DNA of 64,000 nt, taken from Terebella lapidaria. Its lineage: Eukaryota > Annelida > Polychaeta > Terebellida > Terebellidae. Below the pieces are notes generated by a model. That model was not told the DNA's origin. It was given only the letters and a program-made list of their open reading frames with translations, and did not search any database. The stretch is taken from NCBI GenBank assembly GCA_949152475.1, contig OX424561.1, positions 29,444,481 through 29,508,480 of the forward strand. Reading direction: 5' to 3'. Both the position numbers and the translations under genes were made by a program. Positions 51,319 through 54,991 of this stretch are shown here, in pieces (the stretch's first letter is position 1; each line of letters begins with the position of its first letter).

Positions 51319-51374
51319 AATGTAAGTATCAATCTATTACCACCGATACAATCAGATTTTGATGATGCCAATAA
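51319..51374 (+). repeat. R1 repeat, left half (interrupted by the transposon)
   Basis: It matches the left part of the uninterrupted R1 copy at 54848-54991 up to GATGCCAATAA, where the transposon begins. The right half resumes at 54533. Confidence 0.85.
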
Positions 51375-54300
51375 CACAGTGCCGAAACCGACTATGGTAA
51401 CGCGCATTACCATAGTCAAAAATGGCGACAGGCAATTGTGGTTCGAATTTGCTCGTGAATTAATTTGCATATAACGTGTATGAATCGAGGGGATCTTCGG
51501 AATATTGCGAAATCGATACATGTAGGTTAATCCCGATTATGTACAATGAGTCACTTGGTGATATATTAGTGGAAACGGAGTGTGGACAATTGTGTCCTGA
51601 CTAGGGTAACGCGAATGTCAGACTATGGTAATGTGATTTGTAGGAAATTTAATGACTATGGTAATGCGATAGGGCTTTCGTACACAAACACAATTCTTTG
51701 TCAACATAACAACGATTTGAGGGGTAGAATATATGTGTTGAAAAACTCTCGAATCATCTGTTATTTTATCACAAATCCATGTAAAAAAAAGAGAACATTT
51801 GCGATTTTATTACTGTACACAGGTCAGCAACTCCATCAATGTTATTATTTCAGACCTATACTACACAAGTTGTCAATTAAACGCAGGGTCTGGCATAAAG
51901 TCACATTTGAATTTATACAAATCTGTGCATATCCCCATCAAATCGTCAGAAATGTTGATGAATTTCAAAAACGGGAGACAATGCAGGTTTGACTTAAGCT
52001 TGCCCTCAGACTATGCGAGTCAGTTGCAGCGACTCGGTTGCACGCCAATCGCATGCGATCTGGTCGCGGCGACCGTCACTGGTCACACTAGCGATCTTAC
52101 GTCAATACGGTTACGGATGCGTGATTTCACGACTGAATATATAATCAACCAATGGGACAGCGTAAAAATGACGGTCACGGTCTAATGGCGTTCGTCGTGA
52201 CCGTTCTGTCTCTATTTTCAATGGTGAGACTCTACTAATGCGACGAATATATGCATGAGGCAATTTCAGATGAGCGCAACTCGTGCATAGCCCCGAGAGC
52301 GATCACCCGATATAAACAACTGCACTGTTGAAGAACACTAATGTTCGTTCTGGCCATGCATACCGTAGTACAAAGAGAAAAATTCCCTGAATAAACTCCT
52401 TTTTGGCCGCGATTCAGATACGGATAAAAAGATCATCGTGCACATTGGCATACTGCACCAGAGAGCCAAACGGGAGCTTTCTATACATTTTTAAATATCC
52501 ATTGAAAATGTGGGCAATCTAAAAGCGTGGAAAGCGACGCGTACATGTGCATGGGTGTATGCACTGGGGATAGGTTTTGGGGCTGGGTCCTAACGGAAAG
52601 TATGTTACATTTATAAACCTAATATTTGTATATTGATAAAAACATGTCATTTTCGACCATGATCACAGAAAAGTGGTACTTCTACAAGTCCAATATTTGC
52701 GCCACTCCAAAATCACCGTCAGAAATGTTATACTTTACATGCGTCCATTTCCACGATTAAAATTACGGATATGTTTTCGTCATTGACACATACATGCACA
52801 TTTAAAGTTTGAGGGAACCCATGTGGCCATAATCAGTTAGTACTGTAATGACGTGCTGACATCCCTCACCTCCCTGACTTAATTCTGTTATCGAGCAAAT
52901 CACAATAAATCAGCAATGCTTCGTATAACATCTTGTCTATAATTATAGACATTATATATGTTTCAGTGATTTGACAGAAAAGTATGTTTTCCTTCACAAA
53001 CATTCAACTTTAGTTGAATGATATGTGGGAACTATGTCTTATAAACATGTCCGTATCCGTCTACTCACTACTCTTGTGTTGTTTTCATATGTAAGTTCAG
53101 TCAAATATTAAACAGTTTTTCATGTGTGATAAGAAAGTCTTGCGGCATTTACATATTCAGTCCTCATCAGTCATTGAAAATAGAGACATGACGGTCACGA
53201 CGAACGCCATCAGACCGTGACCGTCCTTTTCTCGATAGCCCATTGCTTGATTATATATTCAGTTGTGAATTCACGCATCCGTAACCGTATTAACGTAAGA
53301 TCGCTACTGTGCGTTCAAGTCGCATGTAAATTGACGATATATTTTGAGTGCGATTTGTAGAGAATCTGTAGGCACTAGGCAGACGGGTGTTTTTGTCGTG
53401 TGAACATGGATCATCATCAATGTAGGCTATGTCTGTACATTTTCACGACAACAATCATGCCTAAAATACGAAAGAGAAGGCAAAATAAAGGTTACAAAAG
53501 GAGTGTGTTGGGCCTGTGGGTCATACCTGTGGCACCGTTCATCTTGTTTTCTATGTAAGCCTTTCTCCTATTGAGAACAAACCATGTTTGTCTGGGTAAA
53601 TATTAATACTGGTATGTCGGCACTGACTTTGGAACCACGCTGTTTGAGAATTTGCACCCCAATTATACTACTATTATGTTACTCCATGATCCACTAAATG
53701 TGGATGTCATTCTATTCGTCTGCCACCTTTATCTCTGATAAATATACTGATCGAGTAGTAAGAGGAGTAAGGAACTTAGTTCGAGGCTACTGTCTTACAA
53801 CTGATGTTTGAGGGGTAAGAAGTGTCCCATTTTATTCAAATATTTCAATATTTACTGGTCCGACGCACCCTTGTTCTTGTTCCTGTATTCGGAACAGTGA
53901 CGTCGGAAAGTGATGGACTGTGATTGGAACATCGTCCGCAAACTGTGTTCAGTCCATCGATCCTGTTGTCATAAAATTACCAAGTGTCAGCATGTACCCG
54001 GTACATTTGTACCGGGACTAATCACATGCGACTCAGTGGTTCTACATCGACTCAGTGGTTCTACATCTCATGATGTCAGCATGGGTTTCAGCATTGTACT
54101 ACACCCAGTATATGCAGTTTTAAAGAAAATAATGTACTGTAACCAGAAATAGACCTACTCTGTAGTAAATATACGAATATCGTATAAATTACATTTCAAT
54201 TCTCGTGTTATATATGTTATTTGCAGTGAAGTAGTGAATGCATTACCATAGTCGACACTATGCGTTACCATAGTCAATGTATCCTTGGACTCGGGCGTTA

Positions 54301-54532
54301 CCATAGTCAGCCACGATTTTCACTCGCCGATATCTCGTAGAAAAAGCCTATTTTTCTGTAACTCGCCTTACTAATTATGTGCAGCACAATCAACTTTATA
54401 TCATAGACTTCTGATTGCTTCAAAATAGCCTCTCATTCAAGTTGTTAAGCTCGATCAAATTCGAACCACAAACACCTGCCGCCATTTTTGATTATGGTAA
54501 TGCGCATTACCATAGTCGGTTTCGGCACTGTG
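51375..54532. mobile_element. 3.16-kb Transib/RAG-like non-autonomous transposon (CACAGTG termini)
   Basis: The ends are inverted repeats starting CACAGTGCCGAAACCGAC and closing GTCGGTTTCGGCACTGTG. They are flanked by AATAA on both sides (51370-51374, 54533-54537). The interrupted R1 repeat has an uninterrupted copy at 54848-54991 with a single AATAA, which fixes both boundaries and the 5-bp duplication. CAC-starting ends with 5-bp duplications are typical of Transib and RAG-like transposons, and CACAGTG equals the V(D)J heptamer. Each TIR includes a 28-bp palindrome (GACTATGGTAA...TTACCATAGTC). Mirrored copies of GCATTACCATAGTC recur in the subterminal 300 bp on both sides. The longest ORF (136 codons) is not transposase-like, so it would need a transposase in trans. 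A nested element lies at 52084-53311. Confidence 0.85.
52084..53311. mobile_element. Nested element with 140-bp inverted arms
   Basis: The arms 52084-52223 and 53172-53311 are inverted copies of about 90% identity. They begin CACACTAGCGATCTTACG on one side and CACAGTAGCGATCTTACG on the other, and end at TCTCTATTTTCAATG. Both arms contain a GACGGTCACGGTCT ... GTGACCGT palindromic motif. The centre (about 950 bp) has no recognisable ORF. I cannot define a target duplication. It could be an independent insertion or an internal part of the host transposon. Confidence 0.65.
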
Positions 54533-54627
54533 AATAAGAAACGTAAAATACTACATTTTGCAATAGAAACAAACAAAGCCCGACCAAATAGTTTATCCAA
54601 AGACACACTGGCGTCTTCAGGGGCAGA
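54533..54627 (+). repeat. R1 repeat, right half
   Basis: It continues the R1 repeat from 51374 after the transposon: AATAAGAAACGTAAAATAC through GGGGCAGA, parallel to 54891-54991. Confidence 0.85.
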
Positions 54628-54847: not shown

Positions 54848-54991
54848 TAAATGTAAGTATCAATATATTACCACCAATACAATCAAATTTTGAAGATGCC
54901 AATAAGAAACGTAAAATACAACATTTTGCAATAGAAACAAAGCCCGACCAAATAGTTTATCCAAAGACACACTGGCGTCATCAGGGGCAGA
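54848..54991 (+). repeat. R1 repeat, uninterrupted copy (empty site)
   Basis: The intact R1 unit of about 144 bp reads GATGCCAATAAGAAACG across the position where the other copy carries the 3.16-kb transposon. Confidence 0.85.

Follow-up and report, generated by a model that had tools for sequence, protein, structure and literature searches.

Closest described systems

Transposons of the Transib superfamily carry CAC ends (available part of PMC7204232), and in the Drosophila families hopper and transib2, taken together, 539 of 540 target site duplications are five base pairs long and the target reads CCANTGG, each of the Drosophila terminal inverted repeat (TIR) families described in the available part of the same source showing one duplication length in 98-100% of cases (PMC3276498). 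Within the hAT superfamily, hAT5 generates duplications of 5 bp and hAT6 of 6 bp (Repbase Reports 2007, cited in the available part of PMC12730594), while Hermes is described, in the accessible sections of PMC10368747, with the target nTnnnnAn and a palindromic first subterminal pair. The excerpts at hand further assign CAC..GTG termini with 3-bp duplications to EnSpm (PMC12730594), and duplications of 4-6 bp to integrase-like families, among which IS3EU has TA..TA ends (PMC10045372).

The stretch of DNA analysed here, called the window, comprises 64,000 nucleotides of the Terebella lapidaria genome. A sequence-only reading had recognised in it an inserted element tipped by the V(D)J heptamer, and had placed this element with Transib and RAG-like transposons. 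The features of the locus are as follows (window coordinates; strand given where one was assigned).

51370..51374, no strand: left copy of the target site duplication AATAA (read from the sequence; empty site within the same window)
51375..54532, plus strand: whole inserted element, 3158 bp, made up of a ~1.94-kb non-autonomous subfamily B copy and a nested element (identity to copy L058)
51375..51455, plus strand: left TIR, starting CACAGTGCCGAAACC (81-nt arms, 91% complementary)
51390..51417, no strand: near-palindrome made of ACTATGGTAA and its complement, directly inward of the left tip (position shared by all nine copies examined)
51600..51664, plus strand: three more subterminal motifs, 226, 248 and 281 from the left tip (motif count)
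52090..53305, no strand: nested TIR element, 1216 bp, with ends AGCGATCTTACGT (L058 lacks it at this position)
54243..54307, minus strand: three more subterminal motifs, 226, 259 and 281 from the right tip (motif count)
54452..54532, minus strand: right TIR (81-nt arms, 91% complementary)
54490..54517, no strand: near-palindrome formed by two motifs directly inward of the right tip (motif count)
54533..54537, no strand: right copy of AATAA (read from the sequence)
54848..54991, plus strand: paralogue of the target site, unfilled (alignment to the joined flanks)

Structure of the element in the window

The tips of the element, CACAGTG at 51375-51381 and CACTGTG at 54526-54532, match the heptamer exactly, and the common TIR as well as both copies of AATAA are present, all as the sequence-only reading had described; CACAGTGCCGAAACCGACTATGGTAA opens the element at both ends. 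When the flanks were joined without the element, keeping one AATAA, they aligned through the junction with the unfilled paralogue, which demonstrates an insertion accompanied by one 5-bp duplication. The window copy is 97.5% and 99.3% identical to copy L058 on either side of the nested insert. The latter, which the sequence-only reading had missed, is an element of another kind, outside the window family, with inverted arms of ~140 nt that match at 90% (the first bases around the nested element included) and its own 3-bp duplication, ACT, at 52087-52089 and 53306-53308.

The likeness to a V(D)J recombination signal sequence (RSS) is limited to the heptamer, again as had been stated: the nonamer was not found at 12 or 23 bp, the agreement reaching at most 4 of 9 letters at spacings 11-13 and 22-24. 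The ends hold an array of ACTATGGTAA motifs, five per end in all nine copies examined (one mismatch allowed), at places that agree within 1 base, namely ~17 and 33 from the tip (the palindromic pair), ~226, 248 or 259, and 281. Shuffled elements contained on average fewer than 0.4 such motifs per whole element, with a maximum of 3.

A young family dispersed through the genome

A genome search for other copies bearing the same TIR, as the sequence-only reading had proposed, was carried out over 762 Mb with the first 26 nt, allowing up to 3 mismatches, and recovered 363 ends (187 forward, 176 reverse) versus none for the reversed pattern used as control, so the match at the tips goes beyond chance. 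Exact ends numbered 263, and ~100 further ends carried 1-3 mismatches; assuming that every copy has kept two ends, the copy number is roughly 180. Among the 81 pairs of exact ends that face each other within 30 kb, 49 span 1650-2200 bp, giving a typical core of ~1.9 kb. Comparison of eight copies revealed two close groups of three with 96-98% identity within each, two more copies that are 92-94% identical to the second close group, and subfamilies that are 86-89% identical to each other. The family is thus young, with a core of ~1.9 kb and at least two subfamilies, and the recent activity proposed for the element is supported.

Sister families were sought through the first 15 nt with any base but G next to them, a combination that occurred 3 times (ends with G eight bases outside lay beyond the coverage of this search); one of these three variants pairs with a known end and shows a 5-bp duplication. 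The string CACAGTGCCGAAAC was not found in the literature searched.

Duplications of five and six base pairs at a palindromic target

Tabulation of the duplication length in the 81 facing exact-end pairs gave 57 five-bp, 13 six-bp and 1 eight-bp duplications, and 10 pairs with none, which may represent wrong pairings or rearrangements. The flanks in this table came from 228 of the 263 exact ends, 35 exact ends being absent from it, and the ~100 ends with 1-3 mismatches were left out of all duplication counts. Shuffling of the right flanks yielded 1.3 five-bp and 0.23 six-bp matches per set, versus the 57 and 13 observed. The 5-bp duplication claimed from the single copy therefore holds as the commonest length and not as a uniform one; a consistent length other than five was not obtained.

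The 5-bp duplications (n = 57) lie in the target motif C|ATNAT|G and the 6-bp ones in C|AWNNAT|G, where place 2 of the duplication is A or T (n = 14, including a pair lying 45 kb apart, which joined the target table afterwards, as a further 6-bp case, because its flanks matched). Since the registers of the two differ, the 6-bp duplication does not arise from a 5-bp one lengthened by chance. In a sample of 23 classified copies, which includes L075, L076 and the window copy, subfamily A had 8 five-bp duplications, no six-bp one and 2 copies without duplication, whereas subfamily B had 7 five-bp and 6 six-bp duplications (five against six, Fisher P = 0.046), and the mixture is perhaps confined to this one subfamily. 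Such a mixture within one family is unusual for any superfamily, and poses a modest puzzle as to how transposases set the spacing of their two cuts.

Coding capacity and search for an autonomous source

The sequence-only reading had seen no transposase in the window copy, and indeed none of 10 of the 39 listed window open reading frames (ORFs) had a Pfam match above cut-off. Likewise, 10 ORFs from longer copies gave no Pfam match at E 0.01, and the eight cores compared contained no ORF longer than 140 aa. Nineteen exact-end pairs lie more than 3 kb and less than 30 kb apart; 12 of these, the window copy among them, were fully read, 1 was partly read and 6 were left unread, and in the 12 fully read pairs no transposase was recognised. 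Wherever it could be identified, the extra length of long pairs consisted of nested DNA: the pair at C12:40735901 contains a reverse-transcriptase/RNase H element, and that at C17:25214647 an 8.2-kb insert with a reverse-transcriptase-like piece judged by eye, without a Pfam match. Reading covered 2 kb of the 4.5-kb pair on C15 and samples from either side of an 11-kb pair on C5. Of the prediction of an active or recently active source elsewhere in the genome, the recent activity is supported; among the pairs read no autonomous relative was found, whether with the transposase of another superfamily or otherwise; the enzyme may be encoded in unread parts, or in copies with mutated or unlisted ends.

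On C2, the pair at 55922003-55967210 has 45.2 kb between window-family TIRs and the 6-bp duplication ATGTAA, and its contents, of which ~6 kb were sampled, are other DNA. They include a LINE-like piece with a weak match to an endonuclease model, below cut-off, and one ORF of capsid-like appearance, for which Pfam gave no support.

Which transposase moves the family

That the window element is a non-autonomous cut-and-paste element is well supported. A DDE transposase acting in trans would bind the ACTATGGTAA motifs inside both ends, cut at CAC/GTG, and join the ends across a 5- or 6-bp staggered cut at palindromic C|ATN(N)AT|G targets. Tentatively, and as the leading candidate among several, we propose that this enzyme belongs to the hAT5/hAT6 group. 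This assignment, made by analogy, may fit somewhat better than Transib, because the hAT superfamily is known to include one group that makes 5-bp and another that makes 6-bp duplications, and because the T at the second and the A at the second-last place of the target, the subterminal repeats and their palindromic first pair are like those of Hermes, as far as the available parts of the sources describe these systems (PMC12730594; PMC10368747). The window family differs from hAT5 and hAT6, as presented there, in showing both lengths in one family.

Several observations argue against hAT. No hAT gene was tied to the TIR: of 149 PF05699 matches (from 150 scored of 273 candidates), none lay inside a pair, judged against the 236 ends with known places, and the nearest was 6.2 kb outside a window-family pair. 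At place 3, where the hAT tip consensus calls for a purine, the window-family tip CACAG has C. The C and G that flank the target recall the CCANTGG of Transib, as given in the available part of PMC3276498. A match to AATAACACAGTG near two hAT matches on C3 was rejected, as its tip differs.

A Transib-type or other RAG-superfamily transposase, distinct from the resident RAGL, is an unlikely but serious contender and ranks next. It would account for the CAC..GTG ends with their exact heptamer, for five as the commonest length (57 of 81) and, within what the available part of PMC3276498 reports, for a palindromic target with C and G on its flanks. The exact heptamer is weak evidence alone, because the family is one among very many transposon families. 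In contrast to the Drosophila families of that source, the centre of the target is ATNAT and not CANTG, and 13 of the 70 five- or six-bp duplications (19%) are six-bp, versus 1 of 540 that is not five-bp (Fisher P = 3e-12; the two data sets differ in kind, and the comparison is indicative only). No Transib gene linked to the window-family TIR was found with the RAG1L C-terminus as query, in place of a Transib sequence, and with 12 of the 19 long pairs fully read; to our knowledge, Pfam holds no Transib model. That search returned 14 matches, one of them at a place beyond the RAG1 set, C9:27591018-27591173, where 52 aa are 44% identical to the RAG1L C-terminal catalytic region (E 8e-6). This stretch, a weak point in favour of the Transib reading, is possibly a Transib or a distant RAGL, and lies 3 Mb from any window-family end with a known place. 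Similarly, 17 of the 18 RAG1 matches in the genome lie more than 1 Mb from all 236 ends (of 363) with known places; the remaining one, at C14:20000232, whose own ends were left unread, sits 37 kb from one window-family end. TIR sequences of Transib and of hAT5/hAT6 were not found in the literature text searched.

About equally unlikely, though possible, is a transposase of another or an undescribed DDE superfamily, such as a CMC relative (EnSpm or Chapaev) or an IS3EU/IS481-like enzyme. None of the superfamilies considered fits all features, and CACTA elements carry subterminal repeats. EnSpm shares the CAC..GTG termini, against which stand its 3-bp duplications (available part of PMC12730594), and the integrase-like families produce duplications of 4-6 bp, whereas the ends of IS3EU are TA..TA (available part of PMC10045372).

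A more specific proposal, which we regard as improbable, is a RAG/Transib-superfamily transposase with relaxed spacing, cutting at 5 or 6 bp in a manner perhaps tied to subfamily B, and acting on ends that combine the exact vertebrate RSS heptamer with a hAT-like subterminal array, within a genome where RAG1L-RAG2L transposons with open frames occur as well. In the ranking of superfamilies, then, a hAT5/hAT6-like enzyme remains somewhat favoured.

The resident RAG1L-RAG2L transposons

Genes of the RAG kind do exist in this genome, as the sequence-only reading had led one to look for, but both copies whose ends were reached carry TIRs unlike those of the window family. The element at C7:27373894-27383469 (L071, L059, L072) is 9576 bp long, is flanked by the duplication AAAAG and has open frames for a RAG1L of 1046 aa and a convergent RAG2L of 494 aa; the second, on C9 (L073, L060, L074), is 12963 bp long, with the duplication CACGG, a RAG1L frame of 1058 aa and a RAG2L frame of 494 aa. 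Both start with CACATAGAAACGT, have the TIRs CACATAGAAACGTCCC / CACATAGAAACGTTGT, and are 98-99% identical over their shared parts. The nearest solved structure to RAG1L is 6b40, labelled RAG1L (E 9e-177), presumably amphioxus ProtoRAG, and RAG1L keeps the aligned motifs DGMGDV, ID..H.DI and SEGNE, which we take to stand where vertebrate RAG1 holds its catalytic residues. The RAG2L frame matches Kelch models above their cut-offs, and PHD and RAG2 models only below theirs. The C7 and C9 copies represent a candidate active RAG transposon.

The window family and the RAGL transposons, as known from this genome and from the available part of PMC7204232, are alike in the CACA tip and in mostly 5-bp duplications. 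They differ in the rest of the TIR and in number, hundreds of ends versus a handful, and no RAG genes were recognised inside the window-family copies read. That the resident RAG1L-RAG2L transposon moves the window family in trans is very improbable: two copies with open frames in the same genome, the shared CACA and the proximity of the C14 RAG1L locus to a window-family end speak for it, against which its TIRs share little past CACA with CACAGTGCCGAAACC and have AAA at places 8-10 instead of 11-13, its two readable duplications are unlike ATNAT, and its 3'-end pattern (which misses the 5' ends) occurs at 4 places versus 263 exact ends.

The kinship with Transib and RAG put forward from the single copy is not supported, in view of the different TIRs of the two RAGL elements, the distance of most RAG1 matches from the window-family ends with known places, the 13 six-bp duplications among 70 and the missing nonamer. 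Seven matching letters and the commonest 5-bp duplication speak for kinship with RAG, and the direct tests available are against it or silent. A single copy that combines CAC ends with an exact RSS heptamer and a 5-bp duplication is not enough to establish kinship with RAG or Transib. Nor is it supported that the window family bears on how antibody genes arose, since the tips of the RAGL resident in this genome are different. The window family is ordinary in kind, and it is the RAGL transposon that merits more attention. Further near-identical RAG1L loci are present on C3 and C14. RAG1L also forms two or more additional diverged groups (L064, L065-L070) with ~70% DNA identity to the main group, some of their members carrying in-frame stops or internally repeated pieces.
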